In this document: piece after piece, positions 18,373 to 57,188 of the stretch | Layout of the letters: every line of letters begins with the position of its first letter | Numbering within the stretch: position 1 is the stretch's first letter | NCBI RefSeq assembly: GCF_900142095.1 | Contig: NZ_FQZP01000007.1 | Coordinates: 1-64,000 of the forward strand | DNA length: 64,000 nucleotides | Reading direction: 5' to 3' | Source: Thermoclostridium caenicola | Lineage (GTDB): Bacteria > Bacillota > Clostridia > DSM-8532 | Program-made: the position numbers and the translations under genes | Notes under the pieces: model-generated | Databases searched by the model: none | Seen by the model: the letters and a program-made list of their open reading frames with translations, nothing else | What the model was told of the DNA's origin: nothing

Positions 18373-21138
18373 TTATACCACCTGGCTGCAGCGCTCGCAA
18401 AGGGTGGGATGCTCATGGCTATGTCCCACGGTTTCGGAGTAAATCCAGCAGCGCTCGCATTTCTGGCCGTCAGCCAGCTTGACCACTGCCTCCAGTTCGT
18501 TCTTGTCCGCAAGCTCCAGCTCAACCTGGGAGGTAATGAACACGGTGGGCAGAATCTCCTTCACGCTGTCAAGGAAATCGTACAGCGTTTTGCCGGCCTT
18601 CAGAACCACCTTGGCCTGCAGGGACTGGCCGATGAGTTTCTCATTTCTGGCATTTTCCAGCGCCTTCAGGACGGTTTCACGGACATCCAGGATCCTGTCC
18701 CACTTCTCTTCAAGCGCCTTGTCAGCATACTGGGGATTGACTTCCGGCCAGTCATTGAGCATGACGCTTTCCGTGTTGTCCTTTTCGGTATGGGGCAGAT
18801 GCTGCCATATCTCTTCGCTGGTGAAGGCCAGTACGGGGGCCAGCAGCCTTGTCAGCGTGTGCAGGATGATGTACATGGCTGTCTGCCCGGAACGGCGTTC
18901 CCTGCTGTCTGCCTTTGAGGCATACATCCTGTCCTTGGTCACGTCCAGGTAGAAGCTGGACATGTCCACCGTACAGAAGTTGTGGATGGCATAGAGCATC
19001 ACATGGAAATCGTATTCGGCATAAGCGTTTTCGATCTTATCCACCAGCTTGTTCAGTTTCATCAGCGCCCAGCGATCCAGTTCTTCCATTTCGGCATAAG
19101 GCACGCTATGCTCACTGGGGTTGAAATCGTAGAGGTTACCCAGCAGGAACCTGGCCGTATTCCTGATCTTCCGGTAGTTTTCCGACAACTGCTTGAAGCC
19201 TTCCTGAGAAATACGGATATCGGTCTTATAGTCGCTGGAAGATACCCAAAGCCTCAGGATATCGGCGCCATACTGGTTGCAGACATCCATGGGATCGATG
19301 ACATTGCCCAGGGATTTGCTCATCTTTTTGCCCTGTCCGTCCACCACATAGCCATGGGTCAGCACCTGCCTGTAGGGCGCGCGGCCTTTTGTCGCCACAG
19401 CCGTCAGGAGCGAGGACTGGAACCAACCCCTGTGCTGGTCGCTGCCCTCAAGGTACATGTCCACAGGCCAGCCCAGATCCGGGTTGGGCTCGGCAACAGC
19501 CGCATGGGATGAGCCGGAATCGAACCAGACATCCATGATATCCTTTTCCTTCCTGAAACTGCGGCTTCCGCACGAGCAGGCATAACCCTCGGGCAGGATC
19601 TCGGTGGCTTCATGGGTGAACCAGGCATTGGAACCCTCTCTGGCAAACAGATCCTGAACGGCCTTTATGGTCACATCGTCGATGATCTCCTTGCCGCAGT
19701 CATTGCAATAGAAGATGGGTATGGGAACGCCCCAGACACGCTGGCGGGAAATGCACCAGTCTCCCCTGTCTTCCACCATCTTGGAAATGCGCTCCTCGCC
19801 CCATGCCGGGATCCAGCGGACTTCCCTGATGGCCTTCAGGGCCGCATCCCTGAACTTGTTGATGGAGATGAACCACTGCTCGGTAGCCCGGAAAATGATG
19901 GGATCCTTGCAGCGCCAGCAATGCGGATACTGGTGGCTGATGAGCTCTTCCGCCAGCAGGAGTTTCTTTTCCTTGAGCAGTTCCAGGATGGCCTTGTTGG
20001 ATTTCTTGTAGAACATACCGGCAAATGGACCTGCCTCCTGGGTGAGGTGCCCCTTGTCATCCACCGGTACGATGGTCTCTATTTCAGGATAGTTTTTGCA
20101 GACATCGAAGTCTTCCGCACCATGGCCGGGAGCCGTGTGGACGCATCCGGTACCGGCATCCAGCGTAACGTGGTCCCCCACAATGACCAGGGAATCCCTG
20201 TCCAGGAACGGATGCCTGCAAACCGTATATTCCAGCTCGGAGCCCTTGATTTCACCCAGGATCTTATAGTTGCCGATACCGGCTACCTTGGCCACGTTTT
20301 CAACCAGATCTTTGGCAACGATATAGCGCTCGCCGTTGTCGGCTTCCATAACGGCATAGATGAATTCAGGGTTCAGGCATATGGCCATGTTGCCCGGCAG
20401 CGTCCATGTGGTGGTGGTCCATATGACCACATACAGGTTTTCAAGGGTATCCACAATGCCCTTCAGCTTACCCTTGTCATCGGTCATGGGGAACTTGACA
20501 TAGATGGAGTTGGTGGTTTCCTCCGTATACTCAATCTCCGCTTCGGCCAGGGCTGTTTCGCAGGACGGGCACCAGTATACGGGACGCAGGCCCTTGTAGA
20601 TGCAGCCCAGCTTGGCCATCTCCCCGAACACGCCTATCTGCCTTGCCTCAAACTCAGGCTGGAAACTGATGTAGGGATTATCCCAGTCTCCAATGACACC
20701 CAGGCGCTTGAAAGCATCCCTCTGGATGTTCAGGTACTTCCAGGCTATCTCCTCGCAGGCCTTTCTGAACACCACGGGACCTACTTCATGGCGGTTCAGG
20801 CCCTTTTCCTTGATGGCCTTCTGCTCGGTGGGAAGGCCATGGGTATCCCAGCCGGGGATATAGGGCGTGTAATAACCCTTCATGTCGTAATAGCGCATGA
20901 TGATGTCCTTCAGGACCTTGTTCAGCGCGGTACCCATATGGATGCCGCCATTGGCGTAGGGAGGGCCATCGTGCAGCACAAATTTCTTGCCCGAATTCCG
21001 GTTCCGCTCAAGTCTTTTATGGTAAATGTCCTTCTTCTGCCATTCCTCCAGAATCCGGGGTTCCTTTTCAGGAAGGCCGCCCCGCATGGGGAAATCGGTC
21101 TTTGGCAGGTTCAGTGTGTTGCCATAATCAACTGCCAT
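18373..21138 (-). CDS. ileS: Isoleucyl-tRNA synthetase
   Basis: A 921-residue class I synthetase of the common bacterial type. It charges tRNA-Ile. The HIGH-type motif is HMGT (67-70), the KMSKS motif is intact in GQGKKMSKSLGN, and the C-terminal zinc knuckle has CERCWIY and CERCSQVV. The editing domain is present by length. The ATG follows GGAGG by seven bases. A T-box leader with its own consensus promoter precedes it, so expression responds to uncharged tRNA-Ile. Confidence 0.97.
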   Translation of the reverse strand: MAVDYGNTLNLPKTDFPMRGGLPEKEPRILEEWQKKDIYHKRLERNRNSGKKFVLHDGPPYANGGIHMGTALNKVLKDIIMRYYDMKGYYTPYIPGWDTHGLPTEQKAIKEKGLNRHEVGPVVFRKACEEIAWKYLNIQRDAFKRLGVIGDWDNPYISFQPEFEARQIGVFGEMAKLGCIYKGLRPVYWCPSCETALAEAEIEYTEETTNSIYVKFPMTDDKGKLKGIVDTLENLYVVIWTTTTWTLPGNMAICLNPEFIYAVMEADNGERYIVAKDLVENVAKVAGIGNYKILGEIKGSELEYTVCRHPFLDRDSLVIVGDHVTLDAGTGCVHTAPGHGAEDFDVCKNYPEIETIVPVDDKGHLTQEAGPFAGMFYKKSNKAILELLKEKKLLLAEELISHQYPHCWRCKDPIIFRATEQWFISINKFRDAALKAIREVRWIPAWGEERISKMVEDRGDWCISRQRVWGVPIPIFYCNDCGKEIIDDVTIKAVQDLFAREGSNAWFTHEATEILPEGYACSCGSRSFRKEKDIMDVWFDSGSSHAAVAEPNPDLGWPVDMYLEGSDQHRGWFQSSLLTAVATKGRAPYRQVLTHGYVVDGQGKKMSKSLGNVIDPMDVCNQYGADILRLWVSSSDYKTDIRISQEGFKQLSENYRKIRNTARFLLGNLYDFNPSEHSVPYAEMEELDRWALMKLNKLVDKIENAYAEYDFHVMLYAIHNFCTVDMSSFYLDVTKDRMYASKADSRERRSGQTAMYIILHTLTRLLAPVLAFTSEEIWQHLPHTEKDNTESVMLNDWPEVNPQYADKALEEKWDRILDVRETVLKALENARNEKLIGQSLQAKVVLKAGKTLYDFLDSVKEILPTVFITSQVELELADKNELEAVVKLADGQKCERCWIYSETVGHSHEHPTLCERCSQVV

Positions 21139-21211: not shown

Positions 21212-21475
21212 CAAAAAAAGCCTATCGTCCCATGGGACGAAAGGCTCTGCTTTCCGCGGTACCACCCAAATTGCCCTATCTCCCTTCCGGATGATAGGGC
21301 CACTTGTTTTGAGGGTAACGGTCTCATACCGGCTCACCTTAGTTGGCTCGCTGAGCCTTTCAGGCTGCTGCTCACGGTGGATTTTCGGATCCCCTGTCCT
21401 GCGGGCTTTCACCTGCCCCCGCTCTCTGTAAGGCTTCCGGAACCCTACTCGTACCGATCATCGCTTTATCAGTCT
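21212..21475 (-). promoter_or_regulatory. T-box leader (isoleucine) of ileS
   Basis: The minus strand carries GGGTGGTACCGCGG (21254-21267), the conserved T-box that pairs with the acceptor end of uncharged tRNA. A terminator follows: AGCCTTTCGTCCC pairs with GGACGATAGGCT, then seven T (21212-21246). Upstream in stem I the triplet ATC (21380-21382), in GAAAATCCACC, fits an isoleucine specifier. Uncharged tRNA-Ile should favour the antiterminator and allow ileS transcription. Confidence 0.92.
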
Positions 21476-50186: not shown

Positions 50187-50216
50187 TTGACAACACAGGC
50201 CTGTTCACGATATACT
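50187..50216 (+). promoter_or_regulatory. Promoter of the ECF transporter operon
   Basis: TTGACA (50187-50192), an 18-base spacer and TATACT (50211-50216). Transcription should start near 50223, at the first triplet of the repeat array. Confidence 0.8.
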
Positions 50217-50222
50217 GAACCA

Positions 50223-50274
50223 AAGCAGAGTTGAGATGAGACGAGAATAGAGCAGCGAGAAGAGATGAGACGAG
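50223..50274 (+). promoter_or_regulatory. Candidate TRAP (MtrB) binding site: eleven NAG triplets
   Basis: Triplets begin at 50223, 50228, 50233, 50238, 50243, 50248, 50253, 50257, 50262, 50267 and 50272. In order they are AAG, GAG x4, TAG, CAG, GAG x4. Two-base spacers separate all but one pair, which has a one-base spacer. TRAP is known to bind eleven (G/U)AG triplets with two- or three-base spacers, one per subunit of its 11-mer ring. Nine triplets are canonical; the first and seventh are variants. Confidence 0.8.
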
Positions 50275-50325
50275 ACCATGGCTTACATAGCGCATTTCAG
50301 GGTCAGGAGTCTCCTGGCCTTTTTT
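50267..50325 (+). terminator. Attenuator: terminator with competing antiterminator
   Basis: GGTCAGG (50301-50307) pairs with CCTGGCC (50313-50319) and is followed by six T, an intrinsic terminator. Alternatively GAGAC-GA-GACC (50267-50277, the last two triplets) pairs with GGTC (50301-50304) and GTCTC (50309-50313). The two structures exclude each other. A protein bound to the triplets would free the terminator, as TRAP does in trp leaders. Confidence 0.82.
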
Positions 50326-50389
50326 GGTTCATGCTGTTTTCTCTTCATCACACCTCTGCGAAAAAAGCGTTTTTCAAGGAGGTATTTCT

Positions 50390-50980
50390 ATGTCTCAGGA
50401 AACCATGAACAAGAGGACTATCCAGACCAAATCCGGCAAGGGCATGTCGATCACCGATATCCTTCTGGTGGGTGTCCTGCTGGCCGCCGGCGCAGTTCTC
50501 AAATTTTTCGTGGGAAGCCTTTTCACTGCGGGCATGAAGCCCAATTTCATCATCGCCATGTACTGCCTGGCTATCCTGATTATTAAGCCCCGCTTGTCCG
50601 AAACCATCATCATCGGCATACTGGCCGGCATTGTGTCCCAGTTCTTCCCGGGAACCCCCTATCTGAACCTGATCAGCGAACCCGTGGGGGCCGTAGTCAT
50701 GTATCTGATGATGCTCATCCCGTTAAAGCTGGACATCGGAAAGGTTTCCTTAAAGCCCATCATCGCCACCTTCATCGCCACCTTGAGCAGCGGATTTACC
50801 TTCCTGGGCGCTCTGTATGTCCTGTTCTATGCCGGCGCCAATGTTTCCGCCATGCCGGTGGCCGTTTTCCTGGGTATCATACTGGGAACCGCAACCATCA
50901 ATGCCGTCATTGTCGAAGTTTTGTACATCCCCCTCAAGTTGGCGCTCGGAAAGAAGGTTACCAATGATCCGGTTCAATAA
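50390..50980 (+). CDS. trpP: Tryptophan-type ECF transporter S component (TrpP-like)
   Basis: A 196-residue membrane protein with five or six helices. TDILLVGVLLAAGAVLKFF, then AGMKPNFIIAMYCLAILII, resembles the TrpP tryptophan transporter family (GMKPDF-type motif), and the energising ECF module follows immediately. It would bind the substrate and dock with EcfT. AAGGAGG lies seven bases before the ATG. The preceding TRAP-like attenuator independently supports tryptophan as ligand. Specificity is inferred, not shown. Confidence 0.8.
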   Translation: MSQETMNKRTIQTKSGKGMSITDILLVGVLLAAGAVLKFFVGSLFTAGMKPNFIIAMYCLAILIIKPRLSETIIIGILAGIVSQFFPGTPYLNLISEPVGAVVMYLMMLIPLKLDIGKVSLKPIIATFIATLSSGFTFLGALYVLFYAGANVSAMPVAVFLGIILGTATINAVIVEVLYIPLKLALGKKVTNDPVQ

Positions 50981-51845
50981 TGTCTCCTTTGCATACGAGG
51001 GCAGCGAGGAGCTGGCCGTTCGGAATATCAACCTGCATATCGACAAGGGTGAATTTGTGGGCATTATCGGACCGTCCGGGGCCGGCAAGTCCACCCTTGT
51101 CAGCCTGATCAACGGCGTCATTCCGCACTTTCACAGGGGCGACTATTACGGCGAGGTCCTGGTATGCGGAAAAGACACGCTGGAAAGTACCTGCGGCGAG
51201 ATATCCCGCCATGTGGGAAGCGTCTTTCAGGACCCTGAAGCCCAGATGGTCACAACCGTTGTGGAGGATGAGATCGCCTTTGGCCTGGAGAATTTCAATG
51301 TACCTGCCGGGGAGATTGAAAAACGCATCACCGAATCCCTTAAGATGGTCGGTATTGAGCATTTGAGGCACCGCGGTACGGCGGCTCTTTCAGGTGGCCA
51401 GAAGCAGCGGGTGACCATTGCCGCGGCCATCGCCTTAAGGCCGGAAATCCTGGTCCTGGATGAGCCCACCTCCGAACTGGATCCCCAGGGAAGCCGTCAG
51501 GTTTTCCAGACCCTTAAGCGGCTGAACCAGGAATACGGCATGACCATCCTCATCGTGGAGCAGAAGGTAATGCTGCTTTCAGAATTCTGCAGCCGGCTCA
51601 TGGTTATGGAAAAGGGGCAGATCATTCTGGACGGCCCTGTACGCCAGGTCCTGGAGCATCACGACAAACTGCTGGAACTGGGTATCAATTGCCCTCGGGT
51701 AGTTACCCTGACCAAGCTCCTTAAGGACGCCTCCCTTTATGACGGGGATATTCCGGTGGATGTGGACGAGGCTGAACAGGTCGTCAGAAAGATTTTGGAG
51801 GGAGCTTATGATCAGCATACAGCATTTGACCTATCGTTACGATAA
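50964..51845 (+). CDS. ecfA1: ECF transporter ATPase subunit 1
   Basis: A 293-residue ABC ATPase. Walker A is GPSGAGKST, signature ALSGGQKQR, Walker B ILVLDEPTSELD, and a Q-loop is present. It starts at the ATG of MIRFNNVSFAYEG, overlapping the S-component stop by 17 bases, and overlaps ecfA2 by 38. It powers uptake with EcfA2 and EcfT. Confidence 0.92.
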   Translation: MIRFNNVSFAYEGSEELAVRNINLHIDKGEFVGIIGPSGAGKSTLVSLINGVIPHFHRGDYYGEVLVCGKDTLESTCGEISRHVGSVFQDPEAQMVTTVVEDEIAFGLENFNVPAGEIEKRITESLKMVGIEHLRHRGTAALSGGQKQRVTIAAAIALRPEILVLDEPTSELDPQGSRQVFQTLKRLNQEYGMTILIVEQKVMLLSEFCSRLMVMEKGQIILDGPVRQVLEHHDKLLELGINCPRVVTLTKLLKDASLYDGDIPVDVDEAEQVVRKILEGAYDQHTAFDLSLR

Positions 51846-52635
51846 AAAAGCCCCCCTGATATTGGATCATATCAATCTGGAAATCAATAAAGGCGAGTGT
51901 GTGGCCCTTATCGGGCAGAACGGGTCCGGAAAGACCACCCTGCTTAAGCAATTAAACGGCCTTCTGAAGCCAACCTCCGGCAGGGTTACCATTAACGGTC
52001 TGGACACGGCAACCACAAAAACCAGCGCGCTTGCCCGCCATATCGGCTACCTGTTCCAGAACCCGGATCATCAGATCTTTTGCAACACGGTATATGATGA
52101 GATCCGGTTCGGGTTGCTCAATATTCAATGCCCGCCGGAGGAGATCCATGACAGGATCAAGCGCATCGCCGGGCTCCTGGGGCTTGAAAACAAATTAACC
52201 CGTGATCCCTTCACATTGAGCCGTGGCGAGCGCCAGAGGGTTGCCCTGGCATCGGTTCTGGTGCTGGAAACAGATATTCTTGTTCTGGATGAGCCCACCA
52301 CCGGCCAGGACTACCGGGAATGCGTCGAGATCATGGAGATCGTAAAGGAGCTCAACCGGAAGGGGAAGACCATTATCATGGTTTCCCACGATATCGAGGT
52401 GGTGGCCGATTATTGCGAAAGGACCATTATCCTGCATCAGGGCCGCGTGCTGGAGGATGATGCCACGCACGTTGTGCTGCGCAAGAGCGAAAGCCTGATG
52501 CTGTCCGGGCTGGAACCGCCCCAGATCATCCAGTTGGCTCTGCGCTTCGGCCCGTTGTTCCAGCATGTCCGTTCGCCTGAAGATATGGCCGAGGCCGTCG
52601 CCGCCTGCGCCGTACCGGGAGGTGTGCGGGTATGA
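51808..52635 (+). CDS. ecfA2: ECF transporter ATPase subunit 2
   Basis: A 275-residue ABC ATPase paralogous to the preceding gene. Walker A is GQNGSGKTT and Walker B ILVLDEPTTGQD, but the signature is LSRGERQR instead of LSGGQ, as often seen in one of the two Ecf ATPases. GGAGGGAGCTT precedes the ATG. Its stop overlaps ecfT by ATGA. Confidence 0.92.
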   Translation: MISIQHLTYRYDKKAPLILDHINLEINKGECVALIGQNGSGKTTLLKQLNGLLKPTSGRVTINGLDTATTKTSALARHIGYLFQNPDHQIFCNTVYDEIRFGLLNIQCPPEEIHDRIKRIAGLLGLENKLTRDPFTLSRGERQRVALASVLVLETDILVLDEPTTGQDYRECVEIMEIVKELNRKGKTIIMVSHDIEVVADYCERTIILHQGRVLEDDATHVVLRKSESLMLSGLEPPQIIQLALRFGPLFQHVRSPEDMAEAVAACAVPGGVRV

Positions 52636-53393
52636 AACAGATGCTGGAGTATGTTCACGGCGATTCGGTCATCCATCGTCTCAATCCGTTGGTAAAGCTT
52701 CTTTGGGCTTTTCTGACCTGTATTGCATGCTTCATCAGCAGCAATCATTTGTTCCTGCTGGGCGTACTGCTGTCCACCGTCGTGGTTGCCGCCTCCGGCA
52801 GCGTGCTGGCAAGAGCCAAAGGCGTGTATAAAGCCCTGTTCATCCTGGGCTTTTTGCTGATGCTGTTCCAGCTTCTTTTCACACCCTATGGGCGGGTGTA
52901 TTTTTACATACTGCCCGGCGTACCCGTCACGGATCAGGGATTAAGCTTTTCCCTGCTTCTCATGCTCCGAATGATGGCGGCGCTCTCTCCGCTGTCCCTG
53001 ATGCTGATGCTCACGCCCATGAACGAGCTATTGACAGCCATGACGCATACCCTTAGAATCCCCTATCGTTACGCCTTTGTGGTGGTGACGGCCCTTCGGT
53101 TCATTCCCACCTTCTCCCGGGAGATGGACCAGATCATGCAGGCCCAGAGGTCCAGGGGCCATGAAACCGACACCCGGAACCCTTTCAAAAAGGTCAAGGT
53201 TATCCTGCCCATGTGCATTCCCCTGCTGATATCCTCGGTCAGAAGGATTGAAACCATGGCCATATCCCTTGAAACAAGGGGATTCAACACAGGACCGCGA
53301 TCCTGCAGAAAAAAGCTTGGATTTACAAGATTCGACGCATTGGCTATAATCATAGTCATGGCTGTTTTGCTGTTAAGCATCATCATCGGCTGA
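52632..53393 (+). CDS. ecfT: ECF transporter transmembrane subunit T
   Basis: A 253-residue protein with five or six helices and long cytoplasmic coupling helices. Those carry the short Arg signatures AQRSRG and SLETRGF, which dock onto the two ATPases. Its position, directly after ecfA2 and with only one S component in the cluster, points to a dedicated (group I) transporter rather than a shared module. Confidence 0.92.
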   Translation: MKQMLEYVHGDSVIHRLNPLVKLLWAFLTCIACFISSNHLFLLGVLLSTVVVAASGSVLARAKGVYKALFILGFLLMLFQLLFTPYGRVYFYILPGVPVTDQGLSFSLLLMLRMMAALSPLSLMLMLTPMNELLTAMTHTLRIPYRYAFVVVTALRFIPTFSREMDQIMQAQRSRGHETDTRNPFKKVKVILPMCIPLLISSVRRIETMAISLETRGFNTGPRSCRKKLGFTRFDALAIIIVMAVLLLSIIIG

Positions 53394-53500: not shown

Positions 53501-55297
53501 TTGAAGCGTTTACTGATGGGCAATGAAGCCATTGCCCTTGGCGCAATAAAAGCAGGTGTACGCGTGGTATGCGGTTACCCGGGCACGCCCTCGACCGAAG
53601 TCCTTGAGACGGTGGCCAAAAACAACGATGGTTCCATCTATGTGGAATGGTCGGTTAATGAGAAAACCGCCATGGAAGTCGCGGCGGGAGCAGCCTATTC
53701 GGGCGCCCGCACCATGGTCACCATGAAGCAGGTGGGCCTCAATGTGGCCTCCGATCCCCTCATGAGCCTCGCCTATATCGGTGTAAAAGGTGGAATGGTT
53801 CTTGTGGTGGCCGACGATCCGGGGCCGCTGTCCTCCCAGACCGAACAGGACACCCGGCATTTTGCGAAATTCTCCAACCTGCCCGTCCTGGATCCCTCAA
53901 CCCCTGAAGAGGCCTATGCGATGATCCAGGCGGCTTTTGCGCTTTCAGAAAAGGTTGGGCTTCCTGTTATTCTGCGTCCAACCACGCGGGTATGCCATGC
54001 CTGCGCATCTATCGACGTGGATGATAATCGGGAAGAACATATCCCGTCCGGTTTTGAGAAGGATTCCCGCTGGGTTATCTTTCCCCGGCTTTCTTATAAA
54101 AAACATATCGAAATCGAAAAGCTTCAGACCGTTTTGGCGGAAACCTTCAGCGAGAGCCCGTTCAACCGTGTATCCGGAAAGGGTTCCCTTGGCATTGCCG
54201 GTTCGGGCATCGCCTGGGCCTACGCCCAGGATGTGATCCGCGATCTGGACTTAGATGTAAAGACTTTTAAGGTTGGCACGCCCTATCCCTTCCCTGAAAA
54301 GCTTGCCGAAAGCTTCCTGGAGGGTCTGGAGGCTGTGCTGGTCCTGGAGGAACTGGATCCGGTTATTGAAGAAGCCCTGCTCGAGATTGCCGGTAAAAAT
54401 GGGCTCAAAGTCACCATTTCAGGGAAAAAGGACGGCACCACCCCTTATGCCGGGGAGTATTCCTATGAACTGGTCCGTAAGGCCATAGCTGAATTTACCG
54501 GCAGATCGGACCCCGAGGTACCCGAAACCACCATTCCGCCGCTTCCGGCACGTCCTCCGGTGCTTTGCGCCGGCTGTCCCCACCGGGCTTCCTTCTATGC
54601 CGTCAAAAAGGCCATGAAGGGCAGGAAGGCCGTGTTTACCGGTGATATCGGATGTTACACCCTCGGTAACGCCAAGCCGTTGAACATGGTGGATACCTGC
54701 CTGTGCATGGGCGCCTCCGTCAGCGTAGCCCAGGGCATCAAGCGGGTGGAACCCGACACACGGCTGTTTGCTTTCATTGGAGATTCCACCTTCTTCCATA
54801 CCGGTATCCCCGGCGTCATCAATGCGGTCTATAACCAGACCGATATCGTGCTGGTGGTTCTCGACAACAGCACAACGGCCATGACCGGTCACCAGCCCCA
54901 TCCCGGCACGGGTAGGACCATGATGGGCAGCGTATCGGAAAAAATCGATATCGCCGGCCTCCTGAAGTCCATCGGGGTCAAGTGGGTCCGCAAAATCAAC
55001 CCCTTCGACCAGAAAGCCGCCATCAGCGCGGTGAAGGAAGCTTCCGAAGTGAAGGGCGTTTCAGCCATTATCTTTGAAGCTCCCTGCATCGCCCTGATAA
55101 AGAAGCCCGAGGCCTTCAGCGTGGATTCCGACAAATGCCGGGCGTGCGGCCTGTGCATCAGGGAAATCGGATGCCCGTCCATGTTCCTGATTGATGACGG
55201 CAAGGTACAGATAGAACCGTCCACCTGTTATGCCTGCGGGCTATGCGGCAGCATATGCCCCTTTGGCGCCATCGGAGGGATGAATCATGAAAACTGA
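53501..55297 (+). CDS. iorA: Indolepyruvate:ferredoxin oxidoreductase, alpha subunit
   Basis: A 598-residue thiamine-diphosphate enzyme. It oxidises arylpyruvates, made by transamination of Trp, Phe and Tyr, to aryl-acetyl-CoA and reduces ferredoxin. The pyrimidine-binding domain is N-terminal (GYPGTPSTEVLE). The TPP domain has GDIGCYTLG and GDSTFFHTGIPG. Two 4Fe-4S clusters are C-terminal: CRACGLCIREIGCP and CYACGLCGSICP. The TTG start is poorly supported; an ATG five codons on is possible. It lies 107 bases after ecfT with no terminator between. Confidence 0.95.
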   Translation: MKRLLMGNEAIALGAIKAGVRVVCGYPGTPSTEVLETVAKNNDGSIYVEWSVNEKTAMEVAAGAAYSGARTMVTMKQVGLNVASDPLMSLAYIGVKGGMVLVVADDPGPLSSQTEQDTRHFAKFSNLPVLDPSTPEEAYAMIQAAFALSEKVGLPVILRPTTRVCHACASIDVDDNREEHIPSGFEKDSRWVIFPRLSYKKHIEIEKLQTVLAETFSESPFNRVSGKGSLGIAGSGIAWAYAQDVIRDLDLDVKTFKVGTPYPFPEKLAESFLEGLEAVLVLEELDPVIEEALLEIAGKNGLKVTISGKKDGTTPYAGEYSYELVRKAIAEFTGRSDPEVPETTIPPLPARPPVLCAGCPHRASFYAVKKAMKGRKAVFTGDIGCYTLGNAKPLNMVDTCLCMGASVSVAQGIKRVEPDTRLFAFIGDSTFFHTGIPGVINAVYNQTDIVLVVLDNSTTAMTGHQPHPGTGRTMMGSVSEKIDIAGLLKSIGVKWVRKINPFDQKAAISAVKEASEVKGVSAIIFEAPCIALIKKPEAFSVDSDKCRACGLCIREIGCPSMFLIDDGKVQIEPSTCYACGLCGSICPFGAIGGMNHEN

Positions 55298-55904
55298 TGT
55301 TTTGATAGCGGGAGTTGGCGGGCAGGGACAGGTTCTGGCATCCCGTCTCATCGGCGCGGCAGCCATCCTGGAGGGTTATGCCGTGAGAACCGGAGAGACC
55401 ATTGGTATGTCCCAGCGGGGCGGTTCTGTTGTCAGCCATGTGCGCATCGGCGGAGAAAGCCTGGCAGCCACCGTTCCCTTTGGGCAGGCCGATCTTTTAA
55501 TCGGTTTTGAGTTATGCGAAGCCGTCAGGAACCTTAAGCGCCTTTCGAAAAAGGGAAGACTCATCGTCAACACCCAGCGGATCAATCCGGTCACTGTGTC
55601 GCTGGGAATGGAGCAATATGATGCGGGGGCCATGGAAGAGACCTTAAAACGGGCGGCACAAGATGCCATCTTTCTTGACGGCTATTCCCTCGCCAGGGAA
55701 GCGGGTTCGGTTAAGGCCGTGAACGTTGTGCTGCTGGGCACGGCGGTTGGAGCGGGTTATCTCCCGCTTTCCAGGGAGTCCTTCCTGCAGGCCATAAGGG
55801 ATATCCTGCCTCAAAAGCTGCACGATTTGAACTTCGCCGCATTTGACAAGGGATATGAACTGGGAAACCGCGCCGTTGAGGATAAAACAGCTCAAATAAA
55901 ATAA
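55287..55904 (+). CDS. iorB: Indolepyruvate:ferredoxin oxidoreductase, beta subunit
   Basis: A 205-residue subunit of the pyruvate-ferredoxin oxidoreductase gamma-domain type, with GVGGQGQVLASRLIGAAA at the N-terminus and the GMSQRGGSVVSHVRIG loop. It overlaps iorA by 11 bases. With IorA it forms the complete arylpyruvate oxidising complex. Confidence 0.95.
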   Translation: MKTDVLIAGVGGQGQVLASRLIGAAAILEGYAVRTGETIGMSQRGGSVVSHVRIGGESLAATVPFGQADLLIGFELCEAVRNLKRLSKKGRLIVNTQRINPVTVSLGMEQYDAGAMEETLKRAAQDAIFLDGYSLAREAGSVKAVNVVLLGTAVGAGYLPLSRESFLQAIRDILPQKLHDLNFAAFDKGYELGNRAVEDKTAQIK

Positions 55905-55952
55905 GACAGTCCGGTAAAATGTGTCATGAGCAAAGCAAGAGGAGAGATCAGC

Positions 55953-57188
55953 ATGAGAGCAGATCAGTTTGCAAGCATTAAAGCCCTGTTGGAAAGGGTT
56001 TTTGCCCACAGCCCATTCTATCGCAAAAAGTTTGAGGAAGCCGGTTTTTCGGCAGACAGCATCAAAACGCCCGAAGATTTTCTTAGGCTTCCTTTCTCAG
56101 ACAAGGATGAATTACGCCTGGCCTATCCTTTAGGGTTATTGGCCGTCCACCAGGACAAGATCGTTCGCATCCATTCATCTTCCGGAACAACCGGTATGCC
56201 CGTCATCATTCCCTATACCCGTCGGGATGTGGAAGACTGGACCGAGATGTTCGCCCGTTGCTATGAGATAGCGGGCATCACCAAAAGCGATGTGATCCAG
56301 ATCACACCGGGATATGGTCTGTGGACCGCCGGCATCGGTTTCCAGGCAGGAGCAGAAAAGCTTGGCGCCATGGCTGTGCCCATGGGCCCCGGCAATACCG
56401 AAAAGCAGCTCCAGATGATGACGGACCTCAAAAGCACCGTGCTCTGCGCCACATCCTCCTACGCCCTCCTTTTGGCCGAGGAAGTGGAAAAGCGCGGAAT
56501 ACGGGACAAAATCCATCTGAAGAAAGGCATTATCGGCTCGGAGCGCTGGGGCGAACTGATGCGCAAACGCATCCAGGACGGCCTGGGCATCGAGTTGTTT
56601 GATATCTATGGCCTTACGGAGGTCTATGGTCCCGGCATTGCCATAGACTGCGAGCATCACAGGGGTATGCATTATTTTGACGATTTCCTCTATTTTGAAA
56701 TCATCGACAGCGAAACCGGAGAGGTCCTGCCCGAGGGTGAGGTGGGCGAGCTGGTTATAACCACCCTCAGAAAAGAGGGCGCTCCCCTGGTCCGTTACCG
56801 CACCCATGACCTGACCAGGATCATCCCTGAAAAATGCCCCTGCGGCAGAAGCTATCCGATGATTGATCGGATCCTCGGAAGAACCGACGACATGGTCAAG
56901 GTTAAAGGCGTGAACATCTATCCGGGCCAGGTGGACAGCATTCTCAAGGATATTCCCGGAGTCAGCAGCGAATACCAGATCATCATCGATCACCGCGACG
57001 GCAAGGATACGCTCACCTTACGTGTGGAACGGGATCCCGCCTGTACGGCTTCGGATCTTGAACACGTGATCATGGAGAATTTCAAAAAGCGAATCGGCAT
57101 CAAGATCGACGTGGAAGTGGTTGCCCTCGGAGGGCTTCCGCGAAGCGAAAAGAAGAGTAAAAGGATTTTTGATTACAGGGATCAATAG
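55953..57188 (+). CDS. paaK: Phenylacetate-CoA ligase family (aryl-CoA ligase)
   Basis: A 411-residue AMP-forming ligase. The P-loop is SSSGTTGMPVIIPYT, the adenylate motif DIYGLTEVYGPGIA, the hinge ILGRTDDMVKVKGVN and the catalytic lysine region GGLPRSEKKSKRIF. Next to iorAB it probably converts aryl-acetyl-CoA to the free acid while making ATP, by running the ligase in reverse as proposed for other anaerobes. AGGAGAG precedes the ATG; an ATG nine codons upstream is possible. Confidence 0.9.
   Translation: MRADQFASIKALLERVFAHSPFYRKKFEEAGFSADSIKTPEDFLRLPFSDKDELRLAYPLGLLAVHQDKIVRIHSSSGTTGMPVIIPYTRRDVEDWTEMFARCYEIAGITKSDVIQITPGYGLWTAGIGFQAGAEKLGAMAVPMGPGNTEKQLQMMTDLKSTVLCATSSYALLLAEEVEKRGIRDKIHLKKGIIGSERWGELMRKRIQDGLGIELFDIYGLTEVYGPGIAIDCEHHRGMHYFDDFLYFEIIDSETGEVLPEGEVGELVITTLRKEGAPLVRYRTHDLTRIIPEKCPCGRSYPMIDRILGRTDDMVKVKGVNIYPGQVDSILKDIPGVSSEYQIIIDHRDGKDTLTLRVERDPACTASDLEHVIMENFKKRIGIKIDVEVVALGGLPRSEKKSKRIFDYRDQ

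Follow-up and report, generated by a model that had tools for sequence, protein, structure and literature searches.

The leader presented here lies in a 64-kb window (the whole stretch of DNA that was analysed) and is very probably a switch controlled by the RNA-binding protein TRAP (MtrB), which turns down an operon for the uptake and salvage of tryptophan when this amino acid is abundant. We assign a probability of about 0.87 to this reading. Like the trpE leader of B. subtilis, the leader is predicted to combine attenuation of transcription with sequestration of a Shine-Dalgarno sequence. A first-pass annotation of the same DNA had already suggested TRAP as the regulator, and the presence of mtrB, the conservation of the triplet array and the strict co-occurrence of the two support this suggestion. 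Beyond that annotation, we describe tandem T-box/TRAP leaders, a Shine-Dalgarno switch, a second array, which lies at the ligase gene, and the membership of iorAB and the ligase in the operon. The features of the leader and the operon are compiled in Table 1.

Table 1. Predicted regulatory elements and genes of the leader and its operon (window coordinates).
Feature	Position	Strand	Remarks
Sigma-70-type promoter TTGACA-18-TATACT	50187-50216	+	11/12 matches; spacing to array kept in L002-L006 and Ruminiclostridium leaders
TRAP-type array, 11 NAG (9 GAG/TAG)	50223-50274	+	Conserved in relatives; present only in mtrB+ genomes
GCAGAG, array 5' end (anti-anti-Shine-Dalgarno)	50225-50230	+	Would pair with CTCTGC (50354-50359) when TRAP is absent
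Antiterminator 5' arm (last two triplets + ACC)	50267-50277	+	Pairs with 50301-50313
Intrinsic terminator AGGGTCAGGAGTCTCCTGGCCTT, then T run	50299-50325	+	Stem 50299-50321; 5' arm and loop (50301-50313) are the antiterminator 3' arm
ACCTCTGC element	50352-50359	+	CTCTGC pairs with array 5' end or ACCTC with Shine-Dalgarno GAGGT; mutually exclusive
Shine-Dalgarno AAGGAGGT of S-component gene	50376-50383	+	Predicted to be sequestered when array is blocked; GAGGT is 50379-50383
S component, TrpP family (ECF substrate-binding subunit)	50390-50980	+	PF17099, 48.5 bits; six-helix model
EcfA1-like ATPase	50964-51845	+	PF00005
EcfA2-like ATPase	51808-52635	+	PF00005
EcfT-like transmembrane protein	52632-53393	+	PF02361, 131 bits
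iorA, indolepyruvate ferredoxin oxidoreductase alpha	53501-55297	+	TIGR03336, 786 bits, over cut-off
iorB-like, indolepyruvate oxidoreductase beta	55287-55904	+	PF01558, 132 bits; NCBIfam IOR beta models below cut-off
Second TRAP-type array, 8 triplets	55928-55967	+	Covers Shine-Dalgarno and start codon of ligase gene
PaaK-like arylacetate-CoA ligase	55953-57188	+	TIGR02155, 413 bits (best NCBIfam), below equivalog cut-off; PF14535, PF00501

The triplet array and the TRAP protein

The array consists of eleven NAG triplets, namely eight GAG and one each of TAG, AAG and CAG. They start at 50223 (AAG), 50228, 50233, 50238 and 50243 (GAG), 50248 (TAG), 50253 (CAG), and 50257, 50262, 50267 and 50272 (GAG), in steps of 5,5,5,5,5,5,4,5,5,5, which agrees to the base with the earlier description. 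This is what characterizes a TRAP site, i.e. nine to eleven NAG triplets with a preference for GAG and TAG and spacers of mostly two nucleotides; all spacers in the window array have two nucleotides except for a single one of one nucleotide. The array scores 9.1 in a scheme that favors GAG, TAG and steps of 5 nt, and 2000 dinucleotide shuffles of its own purine-rich leader gave a mean of 2.0 (sd 0.55) and a maximum of 5.9. No other array in the window scores as high on either strand, and the runner-up (4.3) is located at the start of the ligase gene in the same operon. Five KAG triplets in exact steps of 5 nt occur at just two sites of the 2.89-Mb genome, namely the leader and trpE, and a strict seven-triplet pattern matches the leader array alone. 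A chance purine run as the source of the array was considered and ruled out by the shuffles and by the co-occurrence with mtrB.

Right before the triplets there is indeed the near-consensus promoter that had been pointed out previously (Table 1). Since this promoter is conserved directly upstream of the array, transcription is expected to start before the array; the start should lie just before or at the first triplet. A transcription start downstream of the array, named in the first-pass annotation as an observation that would speak against TRAP, is thus not borne out. The array begins within a few bases of the predicted start and therefore could not be preceded by a 5' stem-loop like that of the Bacillus leaders. 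No Rfam family matched the leader, and comparison of the leader DNA with plasmids gave no match. The only Rfam match in the window is an unrelated, ordinary T-box (21230-21470, minus strand), which precedes an isoleucyl-tRNA synthetase-like gene (18373-21138).

A further objection raised beforehand was that the genome might lack an mtrB homolog. The gene, of 84 codons, is present (G000:C25; PF02081, 123 bits, over the cut-off), and it is located between genes that read by eye as dnaE and pfkA. The residues contacting RNA (E36, D39, K56 and R58) and tryptophan in solved TRAP are retained, as E36, D39, K56, R58, T25, T30, Q47, T49 and S53 are all invariant in an alignment of 21 TRAP sequences from the genomes compared here. 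Two exchanges, F32L and K37I, are found in MtrB of the window's family (L001:1471-1722) and of a neighboring genus, and Ruminiclostridium keeps F and K. An alignment with PDB entries likewise has F and K at the positions equivalent to 32 and 37. In the solved TRAP complex, Glu36 binds G3 and Asp39 binds G1, Phe32 stacks on G3 and Lys37 on G1 (PMC4854314). Both exchanges leave a nonpolar side chain at these base-stacking positions but may still affect binding, and they count against the TRAP reading.

The co-occurrence of array and protein was analyzed with S-component orthologs taken from 80 genome contigs, and mtrB was searched in 50 of those genomes. At the S gene, the array score of every one of the 18 genomes with mtrB exceeds that of all 32 genomes without it, with no overlap (Mann-Whitney p = 2e-9), and a score above 3.5 is reached in 17/18 of the former and 0/32 of the latter (Fisher p = 2e-12); both p-values are inflated because the genomes are related and not independent. 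The genomes with mtrB come from the genus of the window, another genus of its family, Ruminiclostridium, Synergistaceae and further groups. The loci L013 and L014 have similar T-box leaders; in L013 neither mtrB nor an array was found, whereas L014 has both. The design of the leader is common to the genus and Ruminiclostridium, and its triplets and their 5-nt spacing are conserved while the sequence around them has diverged. This is the outcome of the comparison with relatives that the annotation had proposed, and a loss of the spacing, which would have counted against TRAP, is not seen. In L097 and L151, which belong to a different clostridial family, the region preceding the S gene likewise contains an array and a hairpin resembling a terminator, together with a C/T-rich stretch to which much of the array is complementary.

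It is very improbable that the leader is simply purine-rich and of low complexity, or that it is recognized by a different RNA-binding protein and has no relation to TRAP. Regions around ribosome sites are generally purine-rich, short NAG runs are common, and the weak scores of L008, L010 and L058 do not stand out from shuffles of the respective sequences. However, dinucleotide-keeping shuffles fail to reproduce the array of the window, the 5-nt period is conserved, and the presence of the array tracks that of mtrB without exception among the 50 genomes.

Predicted attenuator and Shine-Dalgarno switch

According to the first-pass annotation, the terminator competes with an antiterminator formed by the last two triplets. 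The pairings, GAGAC (50267-50271) with GTCTC (50309-50313) and GACC (50274-50277) with GGTC (50301-50304), are confirmed; the antiterminator is built from bases of the array and excludes the intrinsic terminator by an overlap at 50301-50313. In isolation the two structures are equally stable (-13.7 kcal/mol for the antiterminator vs -13.6 kcal/mol for the terminator). In the minimum-energy structure of a transcript ending at 50313, the antiterminator constitutes the core (-14.4 kcal/mol with the array free, -5.3 kcal/mol with the array blocked), and it holds in the growing transcript at 3' ends 50313-50315 (P about 0.8). However, by 3' end 50319 the completed terminator of the window dominates at equilibrium with or without TRAP, so that antitermination at this leader would have to be kinetic. 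When the triplets are blocked in the foldings, a test suggested by the first-pass annotation, the antiterminator is abolished and the Shine-Dalgarno sequence becomes paired; the terminator forms either way at equilibrium. In L003 and L005, blocking the array moves even the equilibrium toward the terminator, and L002-L006 have retained both the terminator stem GGTCAGG/CCTGRCC and the TCTC of its loop. Termination that depends on TRAP, which equilibrium foldings alone do not reveal, is predicted for the window leader.

The second part of the switch concerns the Shine-Dalgarno sequence of the S-component gene and its two alternative partners (Table 1). In the window, the bases of GGAGGT have an unpaired probability of at most 0.06 each with the array blocked and of 0.09-0.92 with the array free. 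In sequestration of the trpE type, the Shine-Dalgarno sequence is accessible in the absence of TRAP and becomes paired once the array is bound, and the foldings of the window and of L002-L005 show this greater accessibility with the array free. Several Ruminiclostridium leaders and L006 showed little or none of the effect; in L006 it was seen in one folding test and not in another. Since blocking of other leader segments as a control revealed that the equilibrium effect is modest and non-uniform, the proposed sequestration rests on the conserved element and a compensatory pair more than on energies.

To examine this conservation, we compared 14 distinct leaders, which come from Ruminiclostridium and the family of the window. 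The helix with the array 5' end is paired in 84/84 cells, and one of its pairs varies, being C-G in six leaders, U-A in seven and U-G in one. Pairing is lost when the helices are slid by 1-3 columns. The single compensatory pair, possibly from one branch, is supportive of the helix with the array 5' end, albeit not conclusive. The helix with the Shine-Dalgarno sequence is paired in 98.6% of the cells, but it is nearly invariant and exhibits no compensatory change.

One could assume that TRAP acts mainly on translation, i.e. that its binding to the array sequesters the Shine-Dalgarno sequence and that the terminator is secondary or nearly constitutive. The victory of the window terminator at equilibrium without TRAP would fit this assumption. 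The Ruminiclostridium leaders have kept the array and an ACCTCT(G/A)C element but, on visual inspection, lack an evident terminator, pointing to translational control in that genus, and trpP of B. subtilis is under translational control only (PMC11255114). We nevertheless consider a mainly translational mode unlikely for the window, since the terminator stem and the array-pairing TCTC loop are conserved in all six leaders of the window's group, the antiterminator forms first and matches the terminator in stability, and array blocking shifts the equilibrium itself in L003 and L005. The dual control by attenuation and sequestration is hence preferred.

The operon and its second array

The operon has the order trpP - ecfA1 - ecfA2 - ecfT - iorA - iorB - arylacetate-CoA ligase, which is conserved in L003-L006, L014 and L069. 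Six helices make up the model of the S component (mean pLDDT 82). Among solved structures it matches RibU and ThiT best, with a probability of 1.0 but a TM of only about 0.5 and an E no better than 0.009. Its PF17099 match, its fold and the adjacent ECF module together characterize it as an ECF S component. The earlier assignment as a TrpP-like S component with its own EcfA1A2T therefore holds, given the Pfam TrpP match, the S-component fold and the orthologs behind UGG (Trp) T-boxes. Tryptophan as the substrate is supported indirectly, by the Trp T-boxes and TRAP arrays on orthologs.

Alternatively, the array might be bound by TRAP and the substrate might be an indolic or aryl acid, e.g. indoleacetate, that feeds the ligase and IOR. 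The linkage of the transporter genes to iorAB and the PaaK-like ligase in the genus, L014 and L069 would be readily explained in this way. We regard such a substrate as a rather unlikely alternative to tryptophan: the S component matches the TrpP family, and most S-ecfA1A2T operons, including those from Ruminiclostridium and Synergistaceae, are without ior and ligase genes within the flanks examined. Moreover, Trp T-boxes precede S-gene orthologs that lack ior and ligase. Tryptophan remains the preferred substrate. A search of the 107 bases in front of iorA revealed neither a terminator nor a promoter. Two promoter-like sites inside ecfT (53031 and 53322) could allow a partly independent supply of iorAB and the ligase.

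The ligase gene carries a TRAP-type array of its own. Its score of 4.3 was reached by 0/1000 shuffles. The orthologous arrays in L003, L004, L005 and L006 score 4.5, 5.3, 7.2 and 5.6, values that were reached by 4, 2, 0 and 1 of 1000 shuffles, respectively, and the array is conserved in 5/5 genomes checked. Among 81 candidate gene starts in these loci, a rough list that caught only the window's copy of the ligase site, the next-best score was 3.2. The ligase genes of L014 and L069 have no array.

The mechanism that we propose comprises TRAP binding, a given direction of regulation, kinetic antitermination and a biosynthetic direction of ior and ligase, all of which we infer from the sequences. 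At high tryptophan, the tryptophan-loaded MtrB ring would wrap the array once it has left the polymerase. The antiterminator would thereby be blocked, the terminator could form and transcription would stop. On transcripts that have been read through, TRAP would keep the 5' end of the array off ACCTCTGC, which could then pair with the Shine-Dalgarno sequence and block translation of the S component. At the second array, TRAP would cover the ribosome site of the ligase gene. Low tryptophan would release all three brakes.

If ior and the ligase are shut off by tryptophan, they should work in the biosynthetic direction, from arylacetate via arylacetyl-CoA to arylpyruvate. The proposed route would lead from indoleacetate to indolepyruvate and further to tryptophan. 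A route from arylacetates to arylpyruvates occurs in rumen bacteria and methanogens. No usable paper on it was found in the literature searched.

The probable wider regulon and its relation to known systems

The trpE gene of the same genome (L136, G000:C5:7219-7755, minus strand) is preceded by a T-box (113.5 bits) with the specifier UGG, as judged by position, and a nine-triplet array lies downstream of this T-box and across the start codon. Two tryptophan sensors are thus present in one leader. G001 and G002 have a T-box plus an array directly at trpE as well. Also the S-component operons of L007, L008, L010-L012, L014 and L058, several of which are from Synergistaceae MAGs, have a UGG T-box followed by an array; the array scores of L008, L010, L011 and L058 are weak in comparison to shuffles of their own sequences. 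In more distant Clostridia, promoter-proximal arrays are located upstream of trpE-like genes (L162 and L163 in G032 and G047).

Arrays are also found at trpB2. They are strong in G003, G011, G020, G023 and G024 and weaker in G022 and G073, and in the window's own genome only a remnant exists. In L161/L172, L173, L174, L175 and L178 (weaker in L176 and L177) they lie directly upstream of or over the ribosome site. Three mtrB-positive genomes lack both trpE and trpC in the family search (G003, G004 and G067; G004 is by sequence the genome of L003, and its mtrB was seen in G062), and five more lack trpC (G020, G024, G069, G071 and G097); some of these assemblies are incomplete, while G003, G020 and G024 are 99% complete. 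In genomes with mtrB but without trpE and trpC, TRAP appears to control only acquisition and salvage.

The closest known counterpart is the trpEDCFBA leader of B. subtilis, which likewise has 11 (G/U)AG triplets, mutually exclusive antiterminator and terminator, and a sequestered Shine-Dalgarno sequence at the first gene; the latter is masked by a TRAP-dependent hairpin at trpE (PMC3913778, PMC11255114). However, the window leader would control a transporter and salvage operon and not a biosynthetic one, the 5' end of its array itself holds the element that pairs with the anti-Shine-Dalgarno element, and there is a further array on the downstream ligase gene. In B. subtilis, the gene of a TrpP-family tryptophan transporter, trpP (yhaG), is also a TRAP target, with direct block of ribosome binding (PMC11255114). 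The window differs from it in the promoter-proximal array, the combined terminator and Shine-Dalgarno switch, its own EcfA1A2T and the iorAB-ligase part. With the ECF vitamin transporters of the ThiT and RibU type, which have a dedicated EcfA1A2T, the operon shares the S-component fold and the A1-A2-T module, but its S component is assigned to tryptophan by family and regulation. The rtpA (anti-TRAP) T-box circuit of B. subtilis likewise couples charging of tRNA-Trp to TRAP-controlled genes. In contrast to it, the UGG T-box and the TRAP array occur here in one leader, and no anti-TRAP above the cut-off was found in the 14 genomes searched.

Since trpP of B. subtilis is a known TRAP target, the control of a TrpP transporter by TRAP is not in itself a novelty, and the earlier statement that no such leader is known on an ECF tryptophan importer was too strong in this respect (PMC11255114). 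An operon for ECF import and salvage that is headed by an attenuator with a Shine-Dalgarno switch nevertheless appears to be new, judging from the literature searched. In the same literature we found no earlier report of tandem T-box/TRAP leaders, of a TRAP site at the ligase gene or at trpB2, or of TRAP being kept without the synthesis pathway; clostridial TRAP sites as such may have been noticed before.

TRAP is the textbook RNA-binding regulator of one biosynthetic operon in Bacillus. We lean slightly towards the broader view that TRAP in these anaerobic Clostridia and Synergistaceae regulates the acquisition of tryptophan (ECF import, the reversed arylacetate route and indole capture by TrpB2) and not its synthesis, that it is kept where trpE and trpC are missing, and that it works in tandem with a Trp T-box and not via anti-TRAP. 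The same protein-RNA code would then govern genes for transport and salvage in anaerobes that are only distantly related, and a Trp T-box and TRAP would share one leader where Bacillus uses the separate anti-TRAP protein. Such leaders may serve as natural test cases for a ring protein that combines control of transcription and translation. From them, a direction can also be predicted for the salvage of arylacetates, a pathway that is poorly understood: a tryptophan-dependent shut-off of ior and ligase, if true, would show that their role is biosynthetic.
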